This document shows positions 20,301 to 61,904 of a stretch of DNA of 64,000 nt, piece after piece. Location of the stretch: positions 29,349,666 through 29,413,665 of the forward strand of contig NC_092579.1 of the NCBI RefSeq assembly GCF_037975245.1. The letters run 5' to 3'. The stretch is from Apostichopus japonicus. Its lineage: Eukaryota > Echinodermata > Holothuroidea > Aspidochirotida > Stichopodidae. The position numbers and the translations under genes were made by a program. Each line of letters starts with the position of its first letter. The stretch's first letter is position 1. Under the pieces are notes generated by a model. The model had not been told where the DNA came from. It ran no database searches and saw nothing but the letters and a program-made list of their open reading frames with translations.

Positions 20301-23300
20301 TGTAGTTTCTTGTTGTCACCTCCAATTAATTCACATTAATTTTTTCTCCCTGTTTTTCAAAAGGGTTCAATGGATTTCCTGTTAGTTCAGTTTGGCCTAT
20401 GTGTCTTCAAATACGACGGTGCAAAATCAAGGTATGTAATCATCGCTGTGTATTTGAACGACGTTTATACAACTTTTGCTACGAGCTGTTTCTCTTAAAT
20501 TTGCAGATACTTGATGTGTTCTTTGATCCCGCCAATTCCTCCTATTCAAAACCAGACTGTAATAATAATAGATGTCGAAAGCTGGGCACACACTTCGTAT
20601 GGTTTAATGTTTTATAGTTTGTTTAACTTGCACAGGGCAAGCACTTAATACTGGCTACACTCTGCACACAGCAAAGAAAAAGTTCAGAAGCTCATCTGAA
20701 TAGCAGATTTCTTCTTTATAAATCTGGCCATGTGGTGCCCCTACTGGTCGTAACCAAGATCAACTTGACTTTATAGTGACCTATTTTTCTATAGTGGTCC
20801 AGACCATTTAAACTTGCAAGATGCAACTAACCACTCTACACTGAACAACTGAAAATGACTGTTTCTGGTAAACGATTGGTGCTCGGTTTAGTCACGCGCA
20901 AAGTCCTTTCCCTGTGATATATACTATGCTATTATGTATACTATGCTGTATGCATATATCTCCTAATGCTATAGATACAGATCAGCTGTATGCTATGCTG
21001 TGTACTATGCCATGATGTATACTATGTTGTATGCATATATGCTAATGCGATAGATACAAATAAGCTGTGTGCTATGCTATTATGTATACTATGCTGTATG
21101 CATATATATGCTAATGCTATAGATACAGATCAGCTGTATGCTATGCTGTGTGCTATGCCATGATGTATACTATGTTGTATGCATATATGCTAATGCGATA
21201 GATACAAATAAGCTGTGTGCTATGCTATTATGTATACTATGCTGTATGCATATATCTCCTAATGCTATAGATACAGATCAGCTGTATGCTATGCTGTGTG
21301 CTATGCCATGATGTATACTATGTTGTATGCATATATGCTAATGCGATAGATACAAATAAGCTGTGTGCTATGCTATTATGTATACTATGCTGTATGCATA
21401 TATATGCTAATGCTATAGATACAGATCAGCTGTATGCTATGCTGTGTGCTATGCCATGATGTATACTATGTTGTATGCATATATGCTAATGCGATAGATA
21501 CAAATAAGCTGTGTGCTATGCTATTATGTATACTATGCTGTATGCATATATATGCTAATGCTATAGATACAGATCAGCTGTATGCTATGCTGTGTGCTAT
21601 GCCATGATGTATACTATTCTGTATGCATATATGCTAATGCGATAGATACAAATAAGCTGTGTGCTATGCTATTATGTATACTATGCTGTATGCATATATG
21701 CTAATGCGATAGATACAAATAAGCTGTGTGCTGTGCTATTATGTATACTATGCTGTATGCATATATCTGCTAATGCTATACAGATCAGCTGTATGCTATG
21801 CTATGCTGTGTGCTATGCTATGATGTATACTATGTTGTATGCATATATGCTATAGATACAGATTCTTTTTACTTGATTAGCAATGAACCATCTTTTTTAA
21901 CTTTGAAGGCTAGGTCTTTTTTCATTTTCTCCTTGAATTTTCAATTGTTTTTAACACCAGTGTATTTGTCATCTCTCATAGGTACACCGCGTACCCTTTC
22001 AACTTTTATGTATTTCCCCGCCCGGTCAACAGACATGCTCCTGATATCCGATTCCGTTGTCAGGTGAGAAAGAAGCAGTCATGTTGTAAATACAAGTGGC
22101 ATTGTTTCATGCGGATTTGCCTGCTTTTGAAGTATTTTTGCTGTAGGCTAGATGAAAGCAGTATATAGTTTTGATAGTTAAACAAATAGTATACTGTTTA
22201 TATAAACTATCCATGTAAATGTTTGTTCATGTTTTAATCTGACCTTGGAACTGTATTTTTTTGTTGTTCAAATTGTCACAATTTTGTGGATTCTTAAAAT
22301 GAAAGATGAATGTGTTGATGGCATAATCTGTCACTCTGCCAAAATGATCGTAAAAATTTTCTTGAAGTTGAGAACTTGAGACAATGGATGAGTCGTACTC
22401 CTATTATGCTGGTAATATTTCAGCATGTCAAAACTTAGTGACAGAATCATTTATGGCACTGATACAGGCTAAGGTTAATCTGTGCCTCATTATAGTCACA
22501 ATTTAATTTGTTGTTTGGTGCAACAAGCTGCAAGGGTGCGACGTAGACCTTCCTTGTCAACGATTGTACGACTAACTGAACAGTTTTACAGGCGTTGCAA
22601 AATAAGGTACACAAGAGCATTAGATGTCTTGCTCAGTTTTAAGTCACAATGGAAACTTGTGAAGAGAAATATTGTCATAAAAGTTAGAAACATCCTGGAA
22701 ATAGATGAAAAGTGTAAAGGAAAGCCAAAAATGTCTTCCCTAACCCTTCCAAAATCAAAAAGGGTTTTTGAAGCTTAGTAGTGAATTCTTTTTAATAGCA
22801 TATCTAGCAGTTTGTTATGAGGGTCACTTGTGGTCTGCATTTGTGATTTTGCCATCAAATGTCTTAGATAGTCAGGGATCTCTGTTAGGTGACAAATTTA
22901 ACACCTCGCTCAACAAAACTTTACACAATCTGTTTATTTATTCCAGAGCTCCAGTATTGATTTTCTGGCATCCCATAACTTTGATTTCAATAAAGTTTTC
23001 CGCGATGGTAAGTGTTTACTGCGTACTAAAGTAACCTTACCTTTGACCATTGCAATCACATGTTTGATCGTCCAGAATTGCATTGTTCAGCGACTGGTGT
23101 GTTCTGGCTGGATCAATGTGTTTGTAATGTCCTGCTTACTCCCATTTTCTGTGTTCTTTCCATGTTCTTATTAGTCATTAGGGACTTATTTGTCATACTA
23201 ATGAGATGTACAATAGACCAATATCATTTGTCTTTGTGACAGAGCAACTTATGATGAACAACGGCTCTAATGTCTTATTACAAAAGTTCAATCTAAAATA

Positions 23301-26300: not shown

Positions 26301-29300
26301 AATATGTGTATCTATCTGTCAGTCTCTATGTTTAAGACAATAGATCTTGTGAGGTATGCTTTCTATTGAGAGGGTCTCATTCAGTCAGAGGAACATTATT
26401 GCTCAAAAGCCTCCTACCTCTGAGGTATTCTGTTATATGTTTAACAAATGAACCTCATGTGTGGCTCGTACCTCTGAGGTATTCTGGTATATGTTTAACA
26501 AATGAACCTCATGGGTGGAAGGACAACCTTAAAATTGGGCCCTGTCAGAGTGTCCATTGGGAAGATTGTTTACAAGATGGTGGTGTGTTGGAACTCATGC
26601 CTGATGAGATGGTCACATTTGCCGAGCGGTGTGTATTTGATCATTTGCTACTTAAGTGGCTTCTGTGAGGTAGCTTCAGTCTGTAGGAGTCATGTAGTAC
26701 CTGCTTTTAATGAGTGGATTCTCTGAGCCTTTAACCTTGAGTTTTCAAAAGAACAATATATTTAGTCAAATTTGAAGGAAATATCAAACACAGTCTCTAA
26801 GTATCTTGCGGTTATAGACTTTTCTTTCATCTTTACTTTTCTCTATTTAGTTTTAAGAGGAAGCTAATCTACCAGACCATTTATGCCAAGTAAGTCTCTC
26901 TCTTTCATTTTCTGCTTTTTCTCCTTTTCTTTCCCCTCAGTTTTATTGGTCTTTGCGTTAGTAAAAACAGTCAAACAGCCAAACTAACATTATATTAAAG
27001 AGAGGGCATAAAATATTGTACGAAGCTCTAGAGAGGACATGGTATGTTATTGCGTATGTACGTAATAATACTACGTACGTATGCAATAATGATCACATGC
27101 GTACATAATAATACTACTTACGTACATGATATGTATATATGTGATAATAAGTACACACGTAGTATTATAACAATCGTATGTGATAATTGTTACGTACATA
27201 CGTAGTAATCTAGGCCTACGTACGTAATAATTAGGCCTATGTACATACGTACGTTATATAGCCTATGTTAACACTTGTCTAATGTAAGCAATGATATACT
27301 GCGGATTATATCTTCATTTCAAAGATGCGGGAGAGGGATGAACTTGTTTGTATGTATTTTAGGCACAGGCAAACCTGTAGTGTTAGTGGAACGAACGTAC
27401 CTTTGCTGTCTCCGGCATTTTGTAGTCCGCTCAATCGTTAAACTAAGTTTGACTTCTGTGGTTGGATGATTGATACATGCGAGGTTTACAATCAACGAGA
27501 AGTATTAGTATATTATAATATAGTAATACCGTACAGTAAAGCGTACATATGCAAGTATCTTTCTTGTAGGCCAATATGTAACAGTATCTACGAACTGCTA
27601 CTACCTAGGTATAGTCAACGTAAAATTATCACGTACGTACGTAATATTTATTACGTACATACGTAGTATTATTAGCTACGTACGTAATCAAATTATTATT
27701 GACCCTGTCCCATCTAGAGCTACGTAATATTGCAATGCAGGCAATTTTGAGACAACGAATCGTTTCCATGTTTGGATGTCGGGAAACATATTTTCAAGGA
27801 TAAAGTCACAGGGTCAAAATACTTCTCACATTTGAAGAAATGAAACTTGATTATACGGTCCATACCTCATTTCTGTTACTGACATAAATAGCTTACATTT
27901 TCTGCTTTCTCTGTGGTAAATTTCTTACACTGAACAGAAAATTTTGACTGGAGATTTGAATTTATTTGCAAATACTGCCCTCTATGTTATCTTATTTCTC
28001 TTCCTACCTTGTTCATCAGTATCTACCCAAAATGCAATTTTTTCCTTTTACATTCCAGATGGCCAACTGGTGTTCATTTGGAATCTCATCCTGTTGAGAA
28101 AAGTGTTAGTTTCAGTCTTATAAATATTGCTAAAAAGGGACATCTTGAGAAAACTAAAATTATGTTTCCCATCTTTTATTCTACAATACATATTTTATTT
28201 CATACCATCATTAATACATAGATTCCTTCTGTTACCTATGCCCAAGGAATTAATAATTGTGGTAGGTTTGTGTCAATGTCAGGATCTTCAATGTGATCTA
28301 AACATTTGATATTCCTGCCATGGATAATACAGAGTTTATTCATAAACAAACTCTCAGAGAGGGATTATCCTTAAATTGTAGCAAATATTTTAGCTTTCCT
28401 GAAGATCTCTGTAATTAATCCTTTATTCCAAAACGGCATTCTGGAATATTTCAAAGTTTTTCCATGTTTGAAATGATTTTCATCGTAATGAAACTTAACT
28501 GACGACCAAACATCGTTCGTGGATTTGATTAACAAAACTATCGTGAAAACTACTTTCCGTGTTGACTGAACTAGCTCTGTATAAAAACCACCCAATGTGG
28601 GGGGGTCCTTCACCCTTCTATGTTTGTCTTCACTCACCATTTTTTTTAGAGATTTTTTAGAGGTTTGTATCGCATATCTCATGTTACTTAGAAAACCAGG
28701 GTTGGTCGAAAAAGAACAAAATAACCTGAGGAATGAGAAAAGTAGTAAACTACGCAAGACGCCATTTTCGATTTTTTCTGATTTTATTCACAGAGACTGC
28801 AAAGCATTTGCGTAAACAGAGCATCTCAGGAAGAAAAGAAGAAACTGGATAAGCAGAAACTACAGAATGCCATGGTTTGTATCTTTTAATATCTATTAAG
28901 TTATCATCTTGAAATATTTCGGAGCGGATCTTTGTGTGTGTTCCGTCAAACTTTTTTGGCAATATCTTCACATGTTGAAATCTCATGATGTTCAAATCAC
29001 AGTCGAAGTCTGTGAAGTTTGCTGCAGAACAGATTTCAGCCATTCGTCTAGTCCGAGCTAAGTTTTATTGGCTTTACATAAAATGGGCTAATACTCTCCT
29101 AATTTGGCAATTTAAGAAGTTTTTACGTTCCTCGAGTGGAATTTTACAAGAACGAGTTATTACTCTTTGATGTCGCCATTCTGGGGAGAAGTGAAACCGC
29201 CTGGGTACCTGGGAATGATTGGTTAGGGTTAGAAATGGTTCCTTATTCAATTATATGTTCTGCCTGGGTACCAGGGAATGATGGGATGGGTTAGGGTTAA

Positions 29301-32300
29301 TAATGGCTCCTTATTCAATTATTTGTTCTGCTTGGGAATGATGGGATGGGTTAGGGTTAGAAATGGCTCCTTATTCAATTATATGTTCTGCCTGGGTACC
29401 TGGGGAATGGTGGGAGAGGTTAGGGTTAATAATGGCTCCTTATTCAATTATTTGTTCTGCATGGGTACCTGGGAATGGTGGGAGAGGTTAGGGTTAATAA
29501 TGGCTCCTTATTCAATTATTTGTTCTGCATGGACACTTGGGAATGATGGGATGGGTTAGGGTTAGAAATGGCTCCTTATTCAATTATATGTTCTGCATGG
29601 GTACCTGGGAATGGTGGGAGAGGTTAGGGTTAATAATTGCTCCTTATACAATTATTTGTTCTGCCTGGGTACTTGGAAATGATGGGATGGGTTAGGGTTA
29701 GAAATGGCTCCTTATTCAATTATATGTTCTGCCTGGGTACCTGGGAATGGTGGGAGAGGTTAGGGTTAATAATGGCTCCTTATTCAATTATTTGTTCTGC
29801 ATGGGTACCTGGGAATGATGGGATGGGTTAGGGTTAGAAATGGCTCCTTATTCAAATATTTGTTCTGCCTGGGTACCTGGGAATGGTGGGAGAGGTTAGG
29901 GTTAATAATGGCTCCTTATTCAATTATTTGTTCTGCATGGGTACCTGGGAATGATTGGATGGGTTAGGGTTAGAAATGGCTCCTTATTCAATTATTTGTT
30001 CTGCCTGGGTACCTGGGAATGGTGGGAGAGGTTAGGGTTAATAATGGCTCCTTATTCAATTATTTGTTCTGCTTGGGAATGATGGGATGGGTTAGGGTTA
30101 GAAGTGGCTCCTTATTCAATTATATGTTCTGCCTGGGTACCTGGGAATGGTGGGAGAGGTTAGGGTTAATAATGGCTCCTTATTCAATTATTTGTTCTGC
30201 ATGGGTACCTGGGAATGATGGGATGGGTTAGGGTTAGAAATGGCTCCTTATTCAATTATTTGTTCTGCCTGGGTACCTGGGAATAGTGGGAGAGGTTAGG
30301 GTTAATAATGGCTCCTTATTCAATTATTTGTTCTGCATGGGTACCTGGGAATGATGGGATGGGTTAGGGTTAGAAATGGCTTCTTATTCAATTATTTGTT
30401 CTGCCTGGGTACCTGGGAATGGTGGGAGAGGTTAGGGTTAATAACGGCTCCTTATTCAATTATATGATCTGCATGGGTACCTGGGAATGATTGGATGGGT
30501 TAGGGTTAGAAATGGCTCCTTATTCAATTATTTGTTCTGCCTGGGTACCTGGGAATGGTGGGAGAGGTTAGGGTTAATAATGGCTCCTTATTCAATTATG
30601 ATCTGCATGGGTACCTGGGAATGATTGGATGGGTTAGGGTTAGAAGTGGCTCCTTATTCAATTATATGTTCTGCCTGGGTACCTGGGAATGGTGGGAGAG
30701 GTTAGGGTTAATAATGGCTCCTTATTCAATTATATGATCTGCATGGGTACCTGGGAATGATTGGATGGGTTAGGGTTAGAAGTGGCTCCTTATTCAATTA
30801 TATGTTCTACCTGGGTACCTGGGAATGGTGGGATGGGTTAGGGTTAGAAGTGGCTCCTTATTCAATTATATGATCTGCCTGGGTACCTGGGAATGATGCA
30901 ATCGTCTACCTGGGTACCTGGAAATGATGCAATCGTCTGCCTGGGTACCTGGGAATGATGCAATCGTCTGCCTGGGTACCTGTGGATGTTGGAATGCTTA
31001 CCAAGGGTATCGTTCTTATTCTGCAGGATGAGGTGGAAGAGGCAGCGGGTTTTGCCAAAGTGATTCAGATGCTGTCTTCATCCAAGAGGACCATCGTCGG
31101 CCATAACATGATGCTGGACCTCATGCACACCCTCCATCAGTTCAGTGGAACTCTTCCAGAGGTAAGTTCATCCTCTTTGCTGGAAAGAAGAGACAAAATA
31201 CCTTTCCAGAATAAATTGTGAGGATTTTTTTTCAAAGTTTTGCCAATTAATTTACGCTCATAGGTCAAAACGTTACTGCGAAATTTTCATAGTCGGGTCT
31301 GCCGTTTACAACTTTTCCCTTAAACCTTTCCGTATTTTTTTTGTGCATTATTGTCACAGGCTGTTCTGATCGATTTTTACTAATTAAGGAGGAAGGAAGT
31401 ATTTACAAAAGGAGAGAGAAGTTTGGCAGATAAAACCAGAAGATAAATAAATACATCAATGAAATGACATTAGAGAGGTTGTCATATTGATTCTTGCAAA
31501 CGGATTTCCTGTTTTGATTTATCAGTTTTTTGCTGATTGAAGATCAATTAAAGGCCCTTAAATGTTAGTTTTTGTGTGATTTTGTTTGTTTGATATCATC
31601 TGGAACAGATACTCTTACAGCTTTTAAACTCTTTATGCAAATTATATTGTATAATTATTTAATAAATTTATTAGATATATATTTTGTCACTTTTTCTTCT
31701 CTCTAATTTTTAGACTCTTGCAGAATTCAAATCCATGACAAATGCCGTCTTCAACAAAATCTTTGACACCAAAGTCTTAGCCACAGCTCATCCTATCAAA
31801 GTAAAGTGAAACTTTCATTTTACAATTTAAATATTTATTTTATAATTACCAGTATCCACTTCTTATCTGTAATTGTGCACATTTGAAATAAAAAAGCTGT
31901 CGAGAAATTTAAATATTTCATCTGCAATATTGATTAGGCAAGTAAAGATATAAAAGCAAGATTTTTTTTGTCTCAAGTGCACTGTGAGTGACTTGGGGGG
32001 GGGGGAGTGGTGCTTTTCATGAAAAACTTGTCATCTCAAACCATTTTCACAATTTAAATAATTATTTATAAATTACCAGTAACAACTTCTTATCTGTAAC
32101 TGTGCACATTTGAGAAAAAGCTGTCGAGCACCTTTTAAATATTTTATCTGCAATCTTTAATAGGCAAGTTAAGATATAAAGCAAGACATTTTCATCTCAA
32201 GTGCACTGTGAGTGACTTGGGGTGGAGGAGGGGGGGGGGAATGGATGTGCATGGGTACAAGTAAGGGGGAGGTAATAGACTGAAAGGAGGACAACCTTAC

Positions 32301-35300
32301 AAGTATTTTAGACCCTAAAAAAGTCATCCACATTGCTCTTCATGAAAAACTTGTAATCTCAAAACAAAAAAACAATTAAATGTTGCTCTGTATTTCATCA
32401 ACATTTTTAATTCAGTCTCAAGATCATTTTTTTTTCACAGATTGGGGAAATAAATATAAAATTATAAGTCTTAATGTTTTTTTTTCTTATGAAAAATGCT
32501 ATTTGATTCACAGGATTTAATTCCATTTTCAAGCCTTGCTGAATTGAAATACCTATGTCATCAAGAACCGTTCCGAGTCCCTCACACAGGTAAGACTGGC
32601 TTTCTTGAATTTATTACAGGGTAAAATATGATTGTCAAGTATCGCATAGCAAAGTGCTATGTGCGAGTTGTTAGTTACACCAATGGAAAAATGAAGAACA
32701 GTGTCTGTACATTAGAACCATAGCATTATTAGAGAGACCATATTCATAGCCTTCAAAACTGCTACACTCTGAAATAACTAATTGATGTGGTTTCCTATTG
32801 GGAACTGAAAGTACTTGCGTTTATCGAAAGTACCTTTTTGTGGTGATTTTTCGTCCTTGAATTTTGCACTTTGCACCTTGAAGCAGTTGTCTTTCTTCTT
32901 GCATGTGCTTAATATGCTTATATCAGAAAGTGTCTGAGAGTGACAGGATTCCAACTGAATCGATTTTTTAATAATTGAAAAATTTTTTTAGTTTTGGTGA
33001 AGTGAGTCTTGCAGGATGTCCCAGATGGATCCCTTATAAAGTTTTTGGTATTTTTTTTATAGAAACAACTGAAAGGTTTGATGAGGGGGACAGAAATTTT
33101 CAATCCAATCGGTGTAAATGTAACATATTTGCATAGTGTTGTCTCGCTAGAATAAGGGGTTATTCACTCTATTTACTTTTGTTTTTACAAATACTAGGTT
33201 TTCCACTCTATGTAAAGACATCTGTATAATATATTCAAATCTGAAAGTTTAAGATAAATGTGAGGAATAGCCAGAGGGTATTTACACCCTACCAGCCTCA
33301 AAAAATCCTGCATGTGTTTTTTCATGTATACTTGGGGTTGTCACTGTCACTTTAAGACAAATATCTTGTTGAGTTTGAAAAGTTTGAATACCGATTTTTT
33401 ATGTCTTTGACACTGTTTTGTTTATTCTGTTCTTTTTGCACTATGAGCAAACTTGTATTTGTAAACTCCAGGTAGGAGATATTCTTGCAAAGAGAACAAG
33501 GTGTTATGTCTAATGTCAACAACATTATTGTTGATACTGATGTCTTTTTATCAGTTCATGTCTTCCTATTGGTCAGCTGATTATCTGGACACACCCCCCC
33601 CCAAATAAGATTAACATAAATTGCAGTTGCATTTGGAGTGGAAATATTAAAGTGAACTGAATGTTCATAAAAAGAAACCAATGTGTTATGTCACATATTT
33701 AGCACCATATATTCTAATACTAACTTTCAAGTTTTGTCTTTCTAATGGTCAGTTAAAGTCATTTGGACACACCCCCTCGACTAAAATTAACCTAAATTGC
33801 AGTTGTATTTGGAGTGGAAATATGAAAGTGAACTGAATGTTCTTAAAAGAAGACCAAGGTGTTATGTCACATATTTAACACCGTATTGTCTAAAACTAAC
33901 TATCAAGTTTTGTCTTCCTATTGGTCAGTTAAAGTTATTTGGACACACCCCCTCATCTGAAATTACCATAAATTACAGTTGCATTTGGAGTGGAACTATG
34001 AAAGTGAACTGAATTTTCTTAAAAGGAGACCAACGTGTTATGTCACATATTTAACACCATTTTGTCTAATACTAACTATCAACTTTTATCTTCCTAATGA
34101 TCAGTTAAAGTCATTTAGACACACCCACTCGACTTGAATTAACATAAATTTGTGGCTTCATTTTGACATTTTAATATGAACTGACTATCTGAGTGGATTC
34201 AAATAGAAAGAGAAGCAGACCCAATCGCCTGCCATATTTTAGCATTTGTGATTGAGATCATCAGAGAAGGCCACTCTCCCAACAAATCTTGTCCTATTTA
34301 TTGGGAGATATTCTAGTTTAAATTTAGGCATTTCTTTGAACTGACAATTTTGTGAATCTGTAATGATATTATGTGCAACTCAGAGGTGAAATCTTATAAT
34401 TTTCCCCTTTCGTTTTTCTTTTTCTGTTGTGAGTATTGATACTGAAACCAATGTCATCGTTAGGTCTTACCGGAAAATGCAGCTAAAAAAAAAAATTCCA
34501 ATAAATCAAGGAAACCAGGGCATGAATATTCATGCACGTGGAGCTCCACGATGTCATATTTAGATTTTATCAAGTCTCTCGTCTTTGTTTTTGTGGAAAC
34601 AGTAAACCTGTGATTTCTCTCATGTTGATGATAGGATTCATGTTTCCTGGCTGTAGAGGGTGGGGGAGGGGGTAGGGAGATGGGTAGGGAAAGGAAGGGG
34701 GAGAGGTGTTCATAACAAGTGTCTCAGTTATGTTTGCCCATGATGATGGTTTCGTTTTGCTTCTCCATTTTAAGAAATTGGAGGGACTGCTACACTCTGA
34801 AATAACTAATTAATAACCTTGTGGTTTCCTATTGGGAACTGAAAGTACTTGCGTCCATCGAAATTAGCTTTTTGTGGTTGTTATTCTTCGTCCTTGAATT
34901 TTGTGTTGAAAACTTGAAGCAATTGTCTTTCTTCTTGCATGTGCTTAATATGCTTTATATATCAGAAAGTGTCTGAGAGTTGACAGGATTCCTTAACTGA
35001 AATCGAATATTTAATTTACAGAATAAATAAATAAATTACTTTTGTGAAGTGATTCTTGGAGGATGTCCCAGTTGGATCCCTTGTTAAGTTTTTGGTATTT
35101 TTTTTTATAGAAACAACTGAAAGGTTTGATAAGGGGGACAGAAATTGTTCCAATCCAATCAGTGTAAATGTAACATATTAGCATAATGTTTTCTCACTAG
35201 AATAAGGGGCAATCAATCTATTGACTTTTTTTTTTTTTTTACAAATACTAGGTTTTACCACTCAATGAAAACATATCTGTATTATGTGTTCAAATTTGAA

Positions 35301-38300
35301 AGTTTGAGATAAGTGTGAGGAATAGCCAGAGGGTATTTACACCCTACCAGCCTTTAAAAAATCCTGCATGTGTTTTTTCATGTGTAGTTGGGATGGTCAC
35401 TGTCACTTTAAGACAAATATCTTGTTGAGTTTGAAAAGTTTGAATACCGATTTTTTATGTCTTTGACACTGTTTTGTTTATTCTGTTCTTTATGCACTAT
35501 GAGCAAACTTGTATTTGTAAAACTCCTGGTAGGAGATATTCTTGCAAAGGGAACAAGTTGTTATGTTTAATGTCAACACCACAATTGTTAATACTGATGT
35601 CTTTTTATCAGGTCATGTCTTCCTATTGGTCAGCTGGTTATCTGGACACACCCCCTCGAATAAAATTAACATCAATTGCAGTTGCATTTGGGAGTGGAAC
35701 TATGAAAGTGAACTGAATGTTCTTAAAAAGAGACCAATGTGTTATGTCACATATTTAGCACCATATTTTCTAATACTATCATGTTTTGTCTTTCTAATGG
35801 TCAGTTAAAGTCATTTGGACACACCCCCTGATCTGAAATTACCATAAATTGCAGTTGCATTTGGAGTGGAACTATGAAAGTGAACTGAATGTTCTTAAAA
35901 GGAGACCAAGGTGTTATGTCACATACTTAACACCATACTATCTAATACTAACTATCAACTTTTGTATTCCTGCTGGTCAGTTAAAGTCATTTAGACACAC
36001 CCACTCGACTTGAATTAACATAAATTTATGGCTTCATTTTAACATTTAAAAATGAACTTAGTGGATTCAAATAGAAAGAGAAGCAGACCCAATCGCCTGC
36101 CATCTTTTAGCATTTGTGATTGAGATCTTCAGAGAAGGCCACTCTCTCAACAAATCTTGTCCTATTTATTGGGAGATATTCTAGTTTAAATTTAGGCATT
36201 TCTTTGAACTGACAATTTTGTGAATCTGTAATGACATGATGTGCAACTCAGAGGTGAAATCTTATAATTTACCTCGTTTGTTTTTCTTTTCCTGTTGTCA
36301 GTGTCGATACTGAAACCAATGTCATCGTTAGGTCTTACCAGAAAATGCAGCTAAAAAAAAAATCCAGAAAACCAGGGCATGAATATTCATGCCAGTGGAG
36401 CTTCATGATGTTATATTTAGATTTTTTCAAGACTCTGATCTTTGTTTTTGTGGAAACAGTAAACCTGTGATTTCTCTCATGTTGATGATAGGATTTGTGT
36501 TTCCTTGGCTGTAGAGGGTGGGGGAGGGGGTAGGGAGATGGGTAGGGAAAGGAAAGGGGGAGAGGCGGTCATTACAAGTGTCTCTTTGCCGATGATAATA
36601 GTTTTTGGTTTTGCTTCTCCATTTTAATCTAAGAAATTTGAGGGACGTTTTTTTGAAATACCTTGATATTGTAACTTCATCAAAGTTAAGTTTGTCATTT
36701 ATTCCGCTTTGAATAAACCTAATGTTTATTCATGGTATGCAAAATAAGCAAAAAATCGAAGGTAACCTTATTAAAAAAATCACCCATTTTCTGTTATTTT
36801 TCATTTCAGTGACAGCCCAAAAATTTCCAGAATATACCCTTCACAATGAACAGCTACACGAAGCTGGTTACGACGCATTTGTGACCGGAATCTGTTTTGC
36901 GACCATGGCTAATTACTTAGGATCTCTTGTCAAGACACCCCCAAAGGGGGGTAGGGTGTCACCTACCAGTCAGCTGATGGAACCATTCATGAACAAGTAA
37001 GGTTCTTTTCTCTGGAAGTTCCATCCTTCAAAGGTCGTCGATATAGCCCCTCCAAAGTAAGCTTTGCTGACGGTTGTCAGAAACGTTTTTCAAACATACA
37101 TACCTTCCCGAAAGGGTTTGGATCCTTCAGATTATTTCCTAGCCATTGAGGAGTGTTACCCGAGAGTATTCATTAATTTTAGTGTTGACAACATTTGAAA
37201 ACATGTGACCATTCGTTGACTCTCTAGCATATTTTGGGGACCATTCGTTGACTTTCTAGCATATTTTGGTGACCTTTCTCGACAAGCAATGTGTCTTTTA
37301 ATGGAAAGAGAAGACTGAGGCGTTACAGTTTTTTTTATACCTTTTGATTCAATAAATACCTTGAATTCAGTAGGGTTGGGGGTTGGGGGGGGGGGGTTGG
37401 GTTTGAAGTGGCTAAATAGGAAGCAGTTTATTGATAGTTGATATTCCTTTCTAGGAAGTCTTAATTTTAATATAATTTATGGATTGCAAAAATGCAAAAT
37501 TTGGTGAACACTGTTATAGCTGGTTAAGCTTACAAGTCGTTTTGACTACGAGAGCGTGCGGAGATACGGCCAGGGGGTGGGGGCAGGGGGGAGTAGAACT
37601 ATTTACTAAGGAAGTGGGGTGGGAAGATTTTGCATGTATTGCTCAGCTGTGGGTGGAGGTGGGGGGGGGATAGTTGGAGGTAATGAGAGGTCCGCTAAAG
37701 GTATGTTTGTCTTTGATTTTTATACTGCTTTATTTTTTTTTACATGTGGATATTTTTCCCTTTTTTCTGACAGCTTTGCCCTTCAAAGCCTCTCTGCATG
37801 TTTCATTTGTTTTCTTTTTTTGTTCGTTGAGAGGCTAGTGAAGGGAGGCACATGAGGCATCAGTTTCACTGGTCAGTCGGTCACTTGTAAACCTCTTGTC
37901 GTCTCTGATTCCATTTTAGATTAGCGGTACATATGATCAGCGAGTTGCCCTATTTGAATTTGATCGGACTGGACCGTAAGTATGATATTTGACAGACTTT
38001 ACATGTTACATGTGTGATACATGTTGCATGAAACCCCATTTTCCTATTCGCTTTAATTGAGATGTGCATTTTGCGCTCATGTGTAATTGAATGGAAGCCC
38101 TTTAAAAATTTATGCCAAATATATCCATACACCTGCCGTGGCTAACTATGGTTCAAAATAAGTTGGCTTCTACTCGTTTAACTTGTAAAAGGAATGTATG
38201 AGATCGTTGATCTCATACTTGGCATGTGGATGCCTCATATTGAGTTCAAGAACCCTATTGTTTTTGGTGGAGGTCAAAAGTCATTTAGGGTCACCTGAGG

Positions 38301-41300
38301 TCAAATGGTGAAAACCTTGTAAACACAATATATCAAGCAGAAAACATGTCTGGATCTAATATCTGGCATGTAATAACCAAAGTTGAATGCAAGAAGCTGA
38401 TTTACGACCATGTTAACATGACTTCAGTCCGTTTAAACTTCTATTATTAAATTATTTATAAATACCTTTGGTGAGTAAAACATCCCTATTAAACTTGGTG
38501 GAGATCAGAGGTCAAACTGTCAAAGCCTTGTAAACATGACATCTCAGAGGTCAAACTTTGATAACGATTCTGTGATTCATAGTTATCAAAAATTGTTAAC
38601 TTTGCCCTTTAAAATATATAATTAGGGATCCTCTGGATAGCAGTGCTTCAGCGCTGAGCAGGACTACCCTCATTAAAGATGACAATACTAAAAAAATTTA
38701 AAAAAATTCTGTGTTGTGAATATTTATGCATGCAAATTCACTTTAACTAATAGCTTACTTATTATAACGGCTTTTTCATGTTTTCAATCATTGCAAATAG
38801 GAGACAACACTTTACACGAAAGTAAAAATTTTGAATAAGAACTGTGTAAACTTTTTTATGAAGACTACAAAAATGTGCGTATGAATTTATGAGTGTGAAT
38901 ATATGAAGAAAGTTAATTTATGATTCTTGTATTTTATGAACAGATACTATTTTATCTCAGTCCTTAGAATGACCTATATTTGTAACTTTTGATAGTAGTT
39001 TCTTTCTCAGTTGTGTTTATTAAAACCAAAATCAATTGAAATTATTAATATGGTTTAATTTACGAGCATCACAAGAGTCAGATTTGTGCAAAGAGTTATG
39101 TGCTGATCACTGGTCACATGAAACGGATGTTTGCAACTTGTGTGGTTCTGGAGTCATCCTCATAACAGTATTAGTTTCCTGATATGTCACCAGATCTGTA
39201 TGTCTGTTTCTTGCTATGTTCACTTCATTGTTGCTGTCAAGTAATCATTCTCTGCTTCTTCCTCGATCTGTAAATTGTTACCAGACTGGTCCCATCAGTA
39301 CCTTGTTATTGATCCAGTGGAGTGGCTGTCTAGTATGATCCTTTACCCTGTTTATTTCCTACCTTTAGTGTCACCAGACTGGTCCTATCAGTACCTTGTT
39401 ACTGATCCAGTGGAGTGGCCGTCTAGTGTAATCTATCTCTCTGTTTATTTCCTACCTATAGTGTCACCAGACTGGTTCCATCAGTACCTTGTTACTGATC
39501 CAGTGGAGTGGCCGTCTAGTATAATCTTTCTCTCTGTTTATTTCCTACCTATAGTATCACCAGACTGGTCCCATCAGTATCTTGTTATTGATCTAGTGGA
39601 GTGGCCGTCTAGTATAATCTTTCTCTCTGTTTATTTCCTACCTATAGTATCACCAGACTGGTCCCATCAGTATCTTGTTATTGATCTAGTGCAGTGGCCG
39701 TCTAGTATAATATTTCTCTCTGTTTATTTCCTACCTATAGTATCACCAGACTGGTCCCATCAGTATCTTGTTATTGATCTAGTGGAGTGGCCGTCTAGTA
39801 TAATATTTCTCTCTGTTTATTACCAATAGTGTCACCAGACTGGTTCCATCAGTATCTTGTTATAGATGCAGTGGTGTGGCCATCTAGTATAATCTTCTCC
39901 CTGTTTATTCCTACCTATAGTGTCACCAGACTGGTCCCATCAGTACCTTGTTACTGATCCAGTGGAGTGGCCGTCTAGTATAATCTTTCACCCTGTTTAT
40001 TTCCTACCTATAGTGTCACCAGACTGGTCCCATCAGTACCTTGTTACTGATCCAGTGGAGTGGCCGTCTAGTATAATCTTTCTCTCTGTTTATTTCCTAC
40101 CAATAGTGTCACCAGACCGGTCCCATCTGTTCCATGTTACTTTCCCTAAGGAGTGGCGGTCCAGTGATCTGCATCACCTCTTCTCTTCCGTGGGCCCAGT
40201 TCAAATCTCATGGAAAGACGACTGCTCAGCATTTGTGGCCCTCTCTCGAAAGGATATGGCTAGAAATGGTAATTGTTTTGTGAAGTTTCTACATCTTAGG
40301 GAGTTTTAGGGAGATTTATATGTATTTTGTGTTGAACATGATCATCCATCATTGAAGAAATGATAGCAAAATGATTCATTGCAAGAACAGATTTCAAATC
40401 TTATAACACAAGTCACTAAGTTTTAAGCTAAAGTTTCAGTGTAAAGTAACCCATATATATGCTGCAACTCTCACATATTCTGAATCTGAAAGTTATGGTT
40501 GGTAAGAACCAGCAATCGCAGTTGTTGAATTTTTTCAGCACTTTAAGGAAAGCTTTTCCAATGGTTTTAAAATACTGCACTGCACTCCACCTCCCTGTTG
40601 GTTGATGACCAGGTTTGGTAAAGGACTTGTGGCTAAAATTTGTTTACAATATGTATATTTGTGTAACATAGGAAGACCAATAACATGACTAGTTACAATT
40701 TGTAACCAGTTGTTCCATGTTATTCCTATCTCTCAAAATTATCAAATCAAATATGAGCTAAATTTGTTCAAAAGGATTGCAAGTTACAGAACAGCCATAA
40801 TTTGGCTTAACATTCAGACAAACATGTTTACTTAAAACATGCTGTTGTAAATTAACCGCATTCCAGGTGGGCTAGTTTTTCTTTAGCTTCCATGAAACAG
40901 ACCTTTGCCTTTTTATAATATCCTTGGTGTTCTTACAGCTTGATCTAGCATGACACTAAAATGCTTAAGCATGTTAAAGCTATTTATTTTTGAAAAAATA
41001 TATTTTTCTTGGGAATAAAGTACTAGGGATCTCCTGTCCATGTCCCAAGGTAAATTAGCTTAGTGCACTATACGTGTTAAAATAGAGGTGAGATGAGAAA
41101 CCGCACTCTCTCAACTGATAAATGGTGAATTTCCTTCGTCTCGAGCAGTTCTGGACATCCCAACTAGCCCGTCGTACGTCATCATGCCGTACAACAAATA
41201 CAAGGAAATATGTGAATACGTGAGCGAGCCCTTCCAAGCCCAGGAAGTAGCCCCAATCCGTCAATCGGAACCGCCCTCGGAACTGACATCCAAAGGGCTG

Positions 41301-45562: not shown

Positions 45563-48500
45563 CTATTTCATTCATCCATTCATTCGTTCATAATAATAAT
45601 AAACATTTATATAGTGGTTACATAACAAATACCTGAAAGCGCTTTACAAAGAATGCAGAGAAAAAAACCACTACTCATTAAAGTACTTACCAAAGAGGAA
45701 GGTTTTTGAGATGAGACTTGATAGTTTGAAAATTATCAAGAGCATGAAGAGACTGGTAAGGTATTCCATAAACGTGGGGCGCAAACATGGAACGCCCTAT
45801 GTCCGTAGAAGTTGGAATTTCCGATAGGTTGGTGGAGACTATATGCATTTGAGCGAATTGTGCCCCCACTACTGCGTATGGTCAGTAATTCTGCCAGATA
45901 AGCCGGTGCCATGTCATGTAAAGATTTTGAATGTAAGACTTAAACTTTGATATTCATTCCGCTGCTGAATTGGAAGCCAGTGTAATTCTTGCAAGACAGG
46001 GGTAATGCGATCTCTTCTTTTGGTTTTAGTTACAAGGCGAGCAGCGGAGTTTTGCAGAAGTTGGAGGGTTTGAATTTGATGCAAAGGAAGGCGGATGAGC
46101 AAACTGCTGCGATAAGCCAATCGAGAACTGACGAAGGCATGAATTAAATGAATGGTAGAATTTTGATCTCGGAGGATATTTTCGAATTTTGGCAATATTC
46201 CAAACAGCGTATGGGGCTGACCTACTGTACGTATATTTACCACATGCTACCAGAATCATCGAATGTTACACCAAGATTACGAACAGTACAGGAAGGAGCA
46301 ATACTGATACCACTAATCCTTATGTCGCAAGGAGAAGCAGAATCTCTGTCACTAAATTTGGATGAGGAGTGTATAATTTCAGTTTTGTAAATTTTTAGGG
46401 CTGGCATATCAACACACATCCACTGACCGATATCACTAATGCAGGACTCGATTTGATCGACAGGGCCATATACCTCGCTTACAAGTGACGTACAGTTGTG
46501 TGTCGTCAGCATACAACATATACTTTAACCCATAACAGAATATAATGTCTTCAAGGGGGGGGGGGGGTTGGGCATAGACTAAATAAGACCTGTCCTAGAA
46601 CAGAACCTTGTGGGATGCCACAGTCAAGTGCCAAAGCCGCCAACACTACCGATCCATTACTCACACGCTGCATTGTACCCTTAAGATATGAACCGAACCA
46701 TTCAAACACTGATCCAGATATTCCAAACCGGATGGCACAACCTGCGTAAAAGTATAGTATGATCGATGGTGTCGAAAGGCGGCACTTAAATCTAATATAC
46801 TTGGGATGACATCATTTATGCCAATCCAGAGCACTTAGCACGCGGTCATTACGCACTCTAAGAAGTGCAGTTTCCGTCCTACGACCCTCCGGGTGAGCTG
46901 ATTGACATTTAGCATAAAGGTCATTTTGCCTTGGATACGCACTCAGTTGTTTGAACACATATTGCCCAATAATCTTAGAAAAGAATGATAAATTGGATAT
47001 CGGGCAATAGTTTTTAAAGAGGTTGTGATTATCAAGATCACATTTTGTCAACGGCGGATAGATTAAAGTTTGTTTGCAGGTTTCAAGAAATTTGCCCCAA
47101 CCTCATATATAAGTTCATTATTTCAGTTATCGGGACAACTTCATAAAATACAATTATTCAGCAGAGTGACTGGAAGAGTATCGAGAACACAAGACTTTCG
47201 TGGACATGCCTCGATGAGATTTGGTAACAAACTCATGTGTGACAGGCTCAACACGTGTCGAACTTTAAGGAAGTTGACTGCTGATGGTCAATAGGCATTA
47301 CAAGTGGGAGACTTTCTGTGATATTGAATATTTTTGTCTGAACAAATTTAGTTCACATATCGGGCAATTTCACAGTTGCAATGTCAGGCACAATAGGTAA
47401 TTCAGTTCTTTGAACCTACTAAACGGTCAATGAGACTAAACAGTTTTTATTTTTGGTCTGCGTTCGCTATTCTGTCACATTGATAATCTGGACGGTTGTC
47501 ATGCAACAGTGTGCCGTATGAACCTTGAGCAGCTTTGAAAATTTCAGGATGTACTTCGAGTCCCTCTCCAGTTTACGCAAGTCGTGGCGGGCTTCGGGTA
47601 ACTGCTCGGAAAGCCACGGAGCCCTCGGTTTATCGAGAAACAATTTTGTGATTCAGTAGGTGGGGCCTGATCAATGATGATAGATTTCAATTTCACTGTT
47701 GTATTGGTTGACCGATTCAGAAATACAGAGGTCACTAAGAGACATTGGGGGTACGAGCCTAGAGAGCGACAACTTTACTGCTTCTTGCAGGACATCGCTG
47801 TTAATGCCTTTCAATCAGCTCCAAGAGGTACAGTACGATAGATCATAGAAGCTGGCGGACGAGAAAGGTCAGTGGTGAAGTGAAGGGTGATCAGGTGGTA
47901 GCAGCCAGTCGTGATCCATGCTTGCAAATAAATTGGTCAGTTTCTCTTTTAATAACAAGATCCAATGTGTGACCCATGTTATGCATCTGAACATTGACAT
48001 GTTGACAAAGGCCCAGTGAATGGAGTAGATCAAGGAATCAGGCAGATCAAGGATCAGGCAATGAACAGTTATCGGAGGCTTCAACGTGTATGTTGAATTC
48101 CCGAATATTATCAGACGTCCCCGAGAATGAACCACCGATTCCAGACGGAAACTTGGTCGGGAACTCCGACAGGTCCAGATGGGGGTCTGTACACAACAGC
48201 AAGACGTATTACTTCAGATGTCACATTAGCGTCTAACAAATTGAACGTTTTGAAATGTGGGGGAATGTTGAATCAAAATTTCCAATTGGATTTAACAATG
48301 ACCGCAGTAACACCGCCTTTATGGTTACTCCTCTGTACCTGGTGAATTCATGTGTGTCATTCATTCATAACATTCATTCATAACATTCATTCATTCATTC
48401 CTCCAATGTTCATTCATTCATGAGTGTCATCTAATTGTTGTTGTATTAACAAATCATCAATTTTTTTTGGGAATTTGTGAGAACACATGTATGTCCAGGT

Positions 48501-51500
48501 GCAGATCTATAGGATATGCACAACCCCACCCCACACCCCCTTCAACCCTGTACAAAATGTTAAAAGACAACTATTAGCACAACCTTGCATAAAAGACCTA
48601 ATTTATAGATCTGATTTATAGCCTCAGACTGCTCTACTTCATGTCTGAAATTTTTTCTTTTTTTTTTCTTTCTGGGGGGGAGACTGCTTCAATGACCCAA
48701 AGGCCGCACCCCCTCCTAAGAATTATTTCTGGCTGAGGACCCCCCCATCCCTTACACAGGAGGCTGCTTCAATGACCCAAGGGCCACACTCCTTCCTTAA
48801 TGTTTCTGGGGGAGCTCCCATTCCTTACATGGGAGAGACTGCTTTAGGCCACACTCCTTCCTTTATAAGATCCTAAATCAGCCCCTGCATGTGGCCTGTG
48901 GAAACGTTAATGTTATGCACAAAATTTGTAAGTTATTGATTCATGATTGTGATCACATTAGCTAGTATCAGTTCTCATTGGCAATGTGAAATGTGTAAAC
49001 TTATTCAAATAACTCTTTTTGACCACTGCCGTCAATGTGTAGTTACATTATATTCAAGAATTATCCGAGTTTGTGTCATAGAACTGGTGGAGAAAATTAA
49101 TCAGCTTTTAAAGGCTGCTATTGGTCAGTCGTTCTACTATGCATAAAGTGAACATGTATGTATACACGAGTATTGTACTAGAATGCTCAAATACCTCTTC
49201 ATGACATGGCCATATAAATGACTTAAACATTCGGCTGACTATAATCCAAATTATCCGAGTTTGTGTCATAGAGCTGGTGGTGGAGGAGATAAATCAGCTT
49301 TTACAGTAAAGGCTGGTATCGGTCAGTCGTTCTACTATTCATAAAGTGAACATGTATGTATACATGAGTATTGTACTAGACTGCTCAAATACCTCCTTCC
49401 TCTTCATGACACGGCCATATAATACTATATAATACTATAATACTACTTTTCGCAATTTACACGGATGAGATACGCTCAGGTTCCAACTGCAATGTTATTA
49501 AGTATGCAGATGATACTGCTGTTTCCTGCAGAATCAGTAAAAGCACACACAGTAAAGATCAAGACGATAATCAGTACTTTATTTCTAGAATTGTTAGCTT
49601 GTGTGAGCAGAAAAATCTCATTTTGAATCCAAATAAATCAAAAGAAATCTTGTTTGAAAATATAAATGTTAAGCACAAAGGTTTAATGAATGTTAAAGAA
49701 CAGAGAACTATAATTCAGGGCTCGTGCGTTGAACGTACCTGTTGCACTATGTATCTAGGCATGTGCATTGACGATAAGTTAACTTTTACAAATCATATCT
49801 CGAAAATGTTAGCTAAAGTGTATTATATTGTTTCTACATTAGCATTCACTGTCCCATACTTTTCCAGTGATACAATAGAAAGGGTGTTCGCGGCGTCTGT
49901 CTTGCCCATCCTAGTATATATGCGGTTCCAGTATGGTACCATTTTGTGCACGTTAAAGATAAGAGAAGAATAAGAAGTTTCCTTAAATTTTGTTCAAATA
50001 TTTTCAGGCTTAATTATGAGAATCTTGTACATAGAGTCAATGAATCTGCTAGGAATGAATTTGTAAGACTATTCAAACTACTAACGAACATCCTCTACAT
50101 TCTAAGCTCAACTCTCTGTGCATTAAAACAAATTATAATTTGAGAAATCCAAATATCACGCAATGTTTTAGAATTATACTCTTTAAGAACTCGTTTATTT
50201 ACAGGGCAGCCCTCTTTGTACAAAACGGCTCCCTAGATCCTTTATTGTAGCTTTTTGATAATGTTTTAGAATTTTTACTCTTTAAGAACTTGTTTTATTT
50301 ACAGAGCAGCCCCTTTTTGTAAACTGGTAAAGAAAGCTTCTTAGATCCTTTGTTGTAGCTTTTTGATAATTTTGATAACTTTTGTAACGCTTTTTATCGT
50401 TCATAATTATCTTAATCTCATAAACTTTTATATGTCTAAACCTGCATTTTTGATGTTCTGTATATTGTTATATTTTTATCCTTTTTATAAATTTCTCTGT
50501 AAATTTATACTGGAATAAAGAAACGAACGAAAAGGAATGACTTCAAAATTCTAGCTGATTATAAACGACTGCAAAGTGACCATGGGCAGCCAAATTGTCA
50601 GAATTTAAAATTTAACTGGGACTATAGGTTAATGAGCAGCTTAAGGGATCCTTGTATGAACAATAAGCAATTCTACACTGTCATACTGTAGCTTAGTATT
50701 CAAAAATTTGAATATTTTGGGTGATTTTCAGCATGGTTGGTATAAATTGTTGCATTGAAACAGTTTAGAATTTGTTAAAATGCTGCTTTGCGCATGTCCT
50801 TTTAAATTTCTCCCCTATCATCCTCCATTAAACTAGTTTGCCGGTGTTGTATTACTTACCAGTCACAACATTTAAAGTTGTCTGCAGTTTACGGGCTCAT
50901 TATCTGCTCGATAAAACGATGTATAAACTTGTCTTCGAAAGACTCGGTGCTCATATCTATTGACAAGCTTTGTATATCCAATAAAATATGAAGATGATTA
51001 AATCCATGAATTATCATAATTTATGAAACGCAAAGTCTCAGATTTGTAATGACTCATTTATTTTTCCTGGTAGATCGAGCTCAGCAGCCACAGATAGACA
51101 TAAGAGGTGAGGCAGGCATAAAAATCCCAGCTTTTGTCATCATTTATACATCCAAAAGCCACCTTTTTTCTCTTCGTTTTCCCCCATTTTTCCTTGAAAT
51201 CCATTAAACTGCCATGCCGACTGAAATTTATTAATTTAGAGATGATTATTAATTTGCTCGCATGCCAGATCAGTTCATGCCAACATCAGGTTTTATTGTC
51301 AATTTTTATGATCATTTATGACCGACCGACAGCACGTGACTGTCGCTGACATTAGAAAAGATGGTTTAATCACAAAAGTTGCATATATAGTTTATTCGTT
51401 TTGCATGGATATCAAATTTTGCTCATAATGATCATGTTAGCAGCAGAACTTACTATAATTGGACTTCAGCTGTGTTTTGCTATAGGCAAACTGCCCTCCT

Positions 51501-59158: not shown

Positions 59159-61904
59159 TCATTCCTGTATTAAGGGAGGGTTTAGCCAATCAAAACATAG
59201 GTTATATTCAGTCCTGTATAAAGGGAGGGTTTAGCCAATCAAAACAAAGGTTACATTTATTCCTGTATTAAATGAGGGTTTAGCCAATGAAAACAAAAGT
59301 TACAGTCATTCCTGTATAAATGGAGGGTTTAGCCAATCAAAGGAAAAGTTACAGTCATTCCTGTATGAAGGGAGGGTTTAGCCAATCAAAACAAAGGTTA
59401 CATTTATTCCTGTATTAAATGAGGGTTTAGCCAATGAAAACAAAAGTTACAGTCATTCCTGTATAAATGGAGGGTGTAGCCAATCAAAGGAAAAGTTACA
59501 GTCATTCCTGTATGAAGGGAGGGTTTAGCCAATGAAAACAAAAGTTACATTCATTCCTGTATAAAGGGAGGGTTTAGCCAATGAAAACAAAAGTTACAGT
59601 CATTCCTATATAAAGGAGGGTGTAGCCAATCAAAGGAAAAGTTACAGTCATTCCTGTATGAAGGGAGGGTTTAGCCAATGAAAACAAAAGTTACATTTAT
59701 TCCTGTATTAAATGAGGGTTTAGCCAATGAAAACAAAAGTTACAGTCATTCCTGTATAAGGGAGGGTTTAGCCAATGAAAACAAAAGTTACAGTCATTCC
59801 TGTATTAAATGAGGGTTTAGCCAATCAAAACAAAGGTTACATTTATTCCTGTATTAAATGAGGGTTTAGCCAATGAAAACAAAAGTTACAGTCATTCCTG
59901 TATAAAGGGAGGGTTTAGCCAATGAAAACAAAAGTTACATTCATTCCTGTATAAAGGGAGGGTTTAGCCAATCAAAACAAAGGTTACATTTATTCCTGTA
60001 TTAAATGAGGGTTTAGCCAATGAAAACAAAAGTTACAGTCATTCCTGTATGAAGGGAGGGTTTAGCCAATCAAAACAAAAGTTACATTTATTCCTGTATA
60101 AAGGGAGGGTTTAGCCAATCAAAGGAAAAGTTACAGTCATTCCTGTATAAAGGGAGGGTTTAGCCAATCAAAACAAAGGTTACATTTATTCCTGTATTAA
60201 ATGAGGGTTTAGCCAATGAAAACAAAAGTTACAGTCATTCCTGTATTAAGGGAGGGTTTAGCCAATGAAAACAAAAGTTACATTCATTCCTGTATAAAGG
60301 GAGGGTTTAGCCAATCAAAACAAAGGTTACATTTATTCCTGTATTAAATGAGGGTTTAGCCAATCAAAACAAAGGTTACATTTATTCCTGTATTAAATGA
60401 GGGTTTAGCCAATGAAAACAAAAGTTACAGTCATTCCTGTATTAAGGGAGGGTTTAGCCAATGAAAACAAAAGTTACATTCATTCCTGTATAAAGGGAGG
60501 GTTTAGCCAATCAAAACAAAGGTTACATTTATTCCTGTATTAAATGAGGGTTTAGCCAATGAAAACAAAAGTTACAGTCATTCCTGTATGAAGGGAGGGT
60601 TTAGCCAATCAAAACAAAAGTTACAGTCATTCCTGTATAAAGGGAGGGTTTAGCCAATCAAAGGAAAAGTTACAGTCATTCCTGTATAAAGGGAGGGTTT
60701 AGCCAATCAAAACAAAGGTTACATTTATTCCTGTATTAAATGAGGGTTTAGCCAATGAAAACAAAAGTTACAGTCATTCCTGTATAAATGGAGGGTGTAG
60801 CCAATCAAAGGAAAAGTTACAGTCATTCCTGTATGAAGGGAGGGTTTAGCCAATCAAAACAAAAGTTACATTTATTCCTGTATTAAATGAGGGTTTAGCC
60901 AATGAAAACAAAAGTTACAGTCATTCCTGTATAAATGGAGGGTGTAGCCAATCAAAGGAAAAGTTACAGTCATTCCTGTATGAAGGGAGGGTTTAGCCAA
61001 TGAAAACAAAAGTTACATTCATTCCTGTATAAAGGGAGGGTTTAGCCAATCAAAACAAAGGTTACATTTATTCCTGTATTAAATGAGGGTTTAGCCAATG
61101 AAAACAAAAGTTACAGTCATTCCTGTATGAAGGGAGGGTTTAGCCAATCAAAACAAAAGTTACAGTCATTCCTGTATAAAGGGAGGGTTTAGCCAATCAA
61201 AGGAAAAGTTACAGTCATTCCTGTATAAAGGGAGGGTTTAGCCAATCAAAACAAAGGTTACATTTATTCCTGTATTAAATGAGGGTTTAGCCAATGAAAA
61301 CAAAAGTTACAGTCATTCCTGTATAAATGGAGGGTGTAGCCAATCAAAGGAAAAGTTACAGTCATTCCTGTATGAAGGGAGGGTTTAGCCAATCAAAACA
61401 AAAGTTACATTTATTCCTGTATTAAATGAGGGTTTAGCCAATGAAAACAAAAGTTACAGTCATTCCTGTATAAATGGAGGGTGTAGCCAATCAAAGGAAA
61501 AGTTACAGTCATTCCTGTATGAAGGGAGGGTTTAGCCAATCAAAACAAAAGTTACATTTATTCCTGTATGAAGGGAGGGTTTAGCCAATCAAAGGAAAAG
61601 TTACAGTCATTCCTGTATTAAGAGAGGGTTTAGCCAATCAAAACAAAAGTTACATTTATTCCTGTATAAAGGGAGGATTTAGCCAATCAAAGGAAAAGTT
61701 ACAGTCATTCCTGTATGAAGGGAGGGTTTAGCCAATCAAAACAAAAGTTACATTTATTCCTGTATAAAGGGAGGGTTTAGCCAATCAAAGGAAAAGTTAC
61801 AGTCATTCCTGTATTAAGGGAGAGTTTAGCCAATCAAGACAAACGTTACATTCATTCCTGTATGAAGGGAGGGTTTAGCCAATCAAAAGCAAAAGTTACA
61901 TTCA
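59159..61904. repeat. 49-bp tandem array with a CCAAT box in every unit, about 56 copies
   Basis: The unit is ATTCCTGTATAAAGGGAGGG, TTTAGCCAATCAAAACAAAA and GTTACATTC. Variants are AAATGAGGG or AAGGGAGGG in the middle, CCAATCA or CCAATGA, and AAAGGAAAAG or AAAACAAAAG at the end. Variants occur in recurring orders over several units, indicating higher-order duplication (for example the block around 60541-60870 recurs around 61080-61400). No unit-spanning frame exists because TTTAGCC carries TAG and other frames also stop. Confidence 0.96.

Follow-up and report, generated by a model that had tools for sequence, protein, structure and literature searches.

PARN and the tandem array in intron 15

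The window, the whole 64,000-nucleotide stretch of DNA that was analysed, holds the gene PARN (Table 1). A profile search found CAF1 nuclease matches at window positions 19809-19961, 22917-23009 and 31024-31161, and a PARN-type RRM (PF08675) was found at 40109 in the same gene. We infer that the CAF1 exons and the RRM belong to one transcript. Twelve exons were placed by eye; the number 16 is taken from the preliminary description, in place of a complete gene model. Exon 16 matched the PARN RRM 1whv_A with an E value of 1.7e-17 (phmmer), and its PF08675 match (72.7 bits) places profile position 5 at 40109, where the first complete codon of the exon begins. Sequence alignment indicated that the exon 16 protein is conserved relative to mouse PARN. 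Across the junction of exons 15 and 16 the frame was open throughout, and the product fitted 1whv_A. A second PARN gene was considered and set aside: a single PF08675 match was reported genome-wide, and a missing match does not show absence.

Table 1. Features of the PARN locus, and sampled loci elsewhere with tandem repeats at an exon boundary. The first row gives contig positions and the following rows window positions; each L locus has its own numbering.
Feature	Position	Strand	Description
Window (G000:C19)	29349666-29413665		holds PARN
PARN exon 15	37920-37975	+	56 nt; donor GTAAGT at 37976; in phase with exon 16
Intron 15	37976-40106	+	donor GT 37976, acceptor AG 40105-40106; array is its last 831 bp
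Unit 0	39185-39275	+	decayed older copy of exon 16 start; end without AG
Unit 1	39276-39368	+	93 bp; 59 nt exon copy plus 34 nt intron end
Unit 2	39369-39461	+	as unit 1
Unit 3	39462-39554	+	as unit 1
Unit 4	39555-39647	+	as unit 1
Unit 5	39648-39740	+	as unit 1
Unit 6	39741-39829	+	89 nt, intron end shortened; AATAG supplies in-frame TAG 39827-39829
Unit 7	39830-39920	+	91 nt, frame-shifted
Unit 8	39921-40013	+	93 bp; open, in exon 16 frame
Unit 9	40014-40106	+	93 bp; open, in exon 16 frame; closed by the true acceptor
PARN exon 16	40107-40268	+	162 nt; RRM start through ISW
Copied part of exon 16	40107-40165	+	59 nt; 47/59 identical to unit consensus
L020	1854-2354		kinase-domain locus; 31-bp unit; GT repeated
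L040	1627-1949	coding strand	helicase-domain; 160 bp, two copies; GT repeated
L046	1745-2365	coding strand	helicase-domain; 67-bp and longer units; GT repeated
L054	1624-2338	coding strand	helicase-domain; unit about 156 bp; GT repeated
L058	1619-1874	coding strand	helicase-domain; degenerate; no second donor word at up to 9 mismatches

A tandem array far beyond what chance would give occupies the end of intron 15. TRF reported it at 39276-40141 with a period of 93, 9.4 copies, 92% matches and a score of 1382. Laid out in register, 39276-40106 forms nine tandem units (seven of 93 bp, one of 89 and one of 91). The PARN RRM match and the register of the units thus bore out the preliminary description, which had placed nine copies of the acceptor and 5' part of PARN exon 16 ahead of the exon and had missed a decayed tenth at 39185-39275. 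Its unit length of 31 codons was right for seven of the nine; units 6 and 7 depart from it, together measuring 180 nt, with the frame shifted only inside the pair.

The consensus of the seven full-length units was identical to exon 16 at 47 of 59 positions counted from the acceptor and then at 12 of 34; among 20,000 sampled window positions outside the array the best ungapped match was 33/59. The fall in identity indicated that a full-length unit consists of 59 nt of exon copy and 34 nt of intron end, which shortens the copied part from the roughly 68 bases first proposed. Consistent with this boundary, seven of the nine blastn self-match rows stopped at 40165, and the remaining two at 40139 and 40166. 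Each intron end carries a branch-point-like site (TATAAT or a near variant, with the A at -26 to -30, identified by pattern match), a pyrimidine tract and AG. Pyrimidines occupied 16-17 of the 20 positions from -24 to -5 in the decoys and 16 of 20 at the true acceptor. The full-length units differed from one another by 2-14% and the units from the exon by 20-29%. According to the translations, the copies have altered conserved PARN positions (F>D, H>L and K>V).

A donor-type site, CTA/GTATAA, was also seen by eye within the units; weak at +5, it would make a 57-nt pseudo-exon. A scan for bacterial-style promoters and terminators gave values at or below background and has no bearing on an animal gene. 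A genome search, which passed over highly frequent words and scored a single candidate region, reported no dispersed copies of the unit; all five of its matches lay within the array.

The copied stretch had been thought to carry the cap-binding Trp of PARN. The Trp of ISW, encoded at 40211-40213, aligned to chain position 36 of 3ctr_A, a construct that we take to comprise residues 445-540 and a five-residue tag. The alignment and this assumed construct start together place on the ISW Trp the cap-binding residue, given as Trp475 in human and Trp468 in mouse in PMC10493513. The ISW codon lies outside 40107-40165; the Trp in the copied FPKEW (40154-40156) is not the same residue.

Upstream of unit 1, the flank 39176-39275 aligned to exon 16 from TGTCACCAGA at 39185 with a score of 43, which was reached by none of 20,000 controls (best 28). 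Against unit 9 it scored 36, again reached by 0 of 20,000 (best 30). The intron-like end of this unit 0 taken alone gave a weak match, its score being reached by 13/1000 window controls and 52/1000 shuffles. Unit 0 is closer to the exon than to the units and is therefore probably older than the changes common to the units. Further upstream, the similarity in 38976-39175 was weak and was equalled by 26/1000 window controls and 18/1000 shuffles.

Tandem arrays are often mis-sized in assemblies, which counts towards reading the unit number, or the array as a whole, as a product of mis-assembly. A precedent is the amphioxus BflGb6 repeat, which according to PMC3087553 seems to be aberrantly assembled in the draft genome. 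An artefact would be expected to yield identical units; the full-length units differ, units 6 and 7 carry private indels, and a decayed copy flanks the array. We regard mis-assembly as highly improbable. The exact number of units is uncertain, and variation of that number between individuals, as the preliminary description envisaged, is plausible.

Other repeats were observed in the same window. The PARN span holds 11 merged arrays, and arrays of period at least 10 make up about 16.5% of the window. Between the PARN exons at 32529 and 36812 lies a tandem duplication of about 2 kb (32758-34773 and 34786-36627, 88.7-89.8% identical), which itself contains a 176-bp repeat. At 29199-30982, a 68-bp minisatellite (25 copies, with TTAGGG-like stretches) is followed by a 31-bp array; these end about 45 bp upstream of the PARN nuclease exon starting at 31027 and do not include it. 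A 49-bp minisatellite of 56 copies occupies 59159-61904. Open frames that by eye resemble non-LTR reverse-transcriptase fragments were seen at 219-1007, 45917-46524 and 49410-49970.

Splice outcomes and tests for selection

Eight decoy AGs are intact in the array, and none is present at 39275 before unit 1. The acceptors at 39368, 39461, 39554, 39647 and 39740 are in frame and run into the TAG at 39827-39829, as the preliminary description had it. Its further statement, that the remaining upstream site would meet a stop in the shifted seventh unit, needs correction: from the acceptor at 39829, which is out of frame, translation would end at a stop at 39955 in the eighth unit. This leaves 39920 and 40013 as the only decoys with open in-frame joins. 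Exon 15 is in phase with 40107, 40014 and 39921, in agreement with the predicted gain of 31 residues from 40013 and 62 from 39920. The added residues had been assigned to the interior of the RRM; since the PF08675 match starts at 40109, either insert would instead lie at the N-terminal edge of the domain.

By sequence, the decoys equal the true acceptor; sequence strength alone therefore cannot explain why the last acceptor should win. Exon definition favours the acceptor nearest the downstream donor. On this ground, and on amphioxus precedents rather than data from this animal, exon 16 would normally be spliced at 40106. The array thus offers a natural test of spliceosome choice among nine near-identical acceptors.

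To account for the array, the preliminary description had proposed either isoforms of variable length or decoys that lower output. In the first reading, 39920 and 40013 are used, 62 or 31 residues are added at the N-terminal edge of the RRM, and the unit number varies among individuals. Both joins are open and in phase, and the branch-point-like site, pyrimidine tract and AG of both acceptors match the true site. Coding constraint on the optional segment, which together with use of both acceptors in messages marks regulated tandem acceptors, was not detected in a comparison that had few changes and low power. Exon 16 and the unit consensus differed by 3 synonymous and 9 non-synonymous changes, a synonymous share of 0.25 compared with 0.26 under neutrality; the distinct variants among the seven full-length units were 3 synonymous and 15 non-synonymous, a share of 0.17 against an expected 0.25. 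Synonymous changes were thus as rare as neutral or rarer (3/12 and 3/18), which speaks against selected isoforms. The copies appear to be free of purifying selection, and the small numbers leave room for weak selection of either kind.

The open units also carry little weight for isoforms, since a unit whose exon part is open would stay open to its end with a probability between 0.47 (using random window sequence) and 0.68 (using the shuffled intron part). Their equal length is inherited and is therefore not independent evidence for function. Moreover, normal splicing is reported for the amphioxus precedents in PMC3087553 and PMC3902484. Functional length isoforms are unlikely in our judgement.

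In the second reading, use of the six upstream acceptors (39368-39829) leads to premature stops and message decay, so that the unit number tunes the PARN level. In its favour, a stop is reached from six of the eight decoys, and AG is kept in all eight. Against it, the survival of all AGs by chance has a probability of about 0.56, calculated from the distance of the units to their consensus; the figure is rough because of the common ancestry of the units and because the seven full-length ones were used in place of the eight decoys. With no sign of constraint either, a decoy array that regulates output is distinctly unlikely. Neither proposal gained positive evidence: the synonymous share, AG retention and open units, as judged from the DNA alone, give selection for isoforms or decoys no backing and would be compatible with low-level use of the sites.

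Boundary repeats elsewhere in the genome

Among the 12 located PARN exons, exon 16 alone matched other parts of the window; the other 11 had no copies there (self-blastn, E up to 0.001, overlap of at least 12 nt). For a base rate, we used 79 loci, namely the best 30 of 134 listed PF00069 matches, 30 of 79 for PF00271 and 19/19 for PF00005; for PF00069 and PF00005 only part of the candidates was scored. Self-matches on the same strand that shared 8 nt or more with the domain match occurred at 10/79 loci. By inspection, tandem repeats at the exon boundary were present at five of the 79, in each case on the donor side: 1/30 for PF00069, 4/30 for PF00271 and 0/19 for PF00005. These five are of the same kind as the PARN array, and the small sample suggests that repeats of this kind are not rare in the genome. 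The rate of 5/79 is rough, in that the loci are not independent (some belong to the same gene), are top-ranked rather than random and cover exon ends only as far as the domain match reaches. At L054, five identical copies of exon end and donor, the true one included, stand 141-157 bp apart.

The self-matches at L025, L028, L029, L030 and L033 were set aside as tandem boundary copies; they are short and end hundreds of bases away (L025 was viewed). These five loci are kinase-like and look like one multicopy family, with a 3' end that resembles short downstream stretches.

Arrays covered 9.3% of the sampled flanks (22,145/237,000 bases). Boundary overlap seems no higher than random placement would give, which favours a neutral origin. 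A broader proposal is that boundary minisatellites form a genome-wide class, in which many exons have spare splice sites, some of them used (including the +31 and +62 joins of PARN), with isoforms that depend on repeat number and a steady supply of new introns and exons. We consider this proposal doubtful. Should the 5/79 figure apply to the whole genome, arrays of this type would be a common source of material for changes in echinoderm introns and isoforms.

Origin of the array and comparison with known systems

The array is probably a neutral mirage, that is, a minisatellite at an intron/exon boundary, mostly silent, with exon 15 normally joined to 40107. The anatomy of the units suggests an ancestral tandem duplication in which some 34 nt from the end of intron 15, together with the initial 59 nt of exon 16, were copied into the intron. 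Two or more old copies may have arisen, one of which decayed into unit 0. The other presumably drifted, released from coding constraint, before it was expanded to nine units; slippage or unequal exchange could have both multiplied the units and kept them alike. This birth order of the copies is read from one genome. The array would then be intronic and mostly silent, the spliceosome joining exon 15 to the acceptor nearest the downstream donor. Low use of 40013 or 39920, or of upstream sites that give premature stops, is possible, and no sign of selective maintenance was seen.

Several features agree with the structural definition of a mirage. The tandem unit spans an intron/exon boundary (59 nt of exon and 34 nt of intron end), many units keep splice dinucleotides (eight decoy AGs, with the AG before unit 1 lost), and the array is homogenised inside with its edges excluded, the exon standing 20-29% away and unit 0 being decayed. 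Other observations run counter to this reading. AG persists in every one of the eight decoys, with pyrimidine tracts almost the same throughout; units 8 and 9 can be read through in the exon 16 frame; the 79 sampled loci contained no acceptor-side case; and the other 11 located PARN exons have no copies in the window. On balance, a function of the array in PARN is unlikely.

The host is not a cephalochordate, the group in which the term mirage was coined, although that origin is not part of the structural definition. Its 16,099-base mitochondrial contig C35 has nad4L between cox1 and cox2, and cox1 residues are restored when AAA is translated as Asn and ATA as Ile. Named from their translations, the genes in its first 10 kb are cox1, nad4L, cox2, atp6, cox3, nad3, nad4, nad5, nad6 (minus strand) and cob. 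We take this gene order and code to be the echinoderm pattern, and the restored cox1 residues to be conserved ones. An amphioxus origin, which the mirage papers had suggested, was first tested with the GFP family; no match was reported, a result that does not show absence, and the mitochondrial gene order and code then set that origin aside. Five further cox1 matches lie on G000:C29 (31,219 bases), which may be a nuclear mitochondrial copy or an assembly remnant. The genome comprises 671.6 Mb in 35 contigs. The contigs C1-C23 all carry matches, and 21 of them were measured at 18.2-46.0 Mb; 23 chromosomes are likely, and a sea cucumber is one conjecture that would fit.

No boundary-spanning minisatellite outside amphioxus was recognised in a literature search at the level of titles and abstract starts, with subscription journals largely outside it; an echinoderm report may exist. 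The PARN array would extend the amphioxus kind of mirage beyond cephalochordates, to a phylum for which that search found no report.

The Rogers model, as cited in PMC3087553, derives intron gain from tandem duplication of segments that bear splice sites. The PARN array resembles it in that a tandem duplication yields spare splice sites inside a gene, and differs in that these are only spare acceptors in an existing intron, with no new intron or exon shown. A closer parallel is found in amphioxus PGBD5, where PMC3902484 describes similar imperfect tandem repeats over splice sites and cites the mirages of Adh and troponin C (TnC) as giving no aberrant messages. In common with the Adh, TnC and PGBD5 cases, the array is built of short tandem units containing a splice site (5' or 3'); the gene, the unit and the phylum differ.

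The mirage of the amphioxus globin BflGb6 is described in PMC3087553 as minisatellite-like tandem copies that join an intron's 3' end to the 5' part of the next exon, with units of 150-160 bp numbering 6 and 3 in two haplotypes. Splice signals occur in many of its units and not in all, the inside is homogenised and the edge units are excluded. The mirage is reported not to disturb splicing; the same source notes that the repeated AG/GT signals of mirages could serve as cryptic sites. The PARN array differs from BflGb6 in its 93-bp unit, its nine units, its gene and its host, an echinoderm rather than a cephalochordate. The two agree, as far as that source describes BflGb6, in their copies of an intron/exon boundary, in splice signals retained by many units and in homogenised units with diverged edges.
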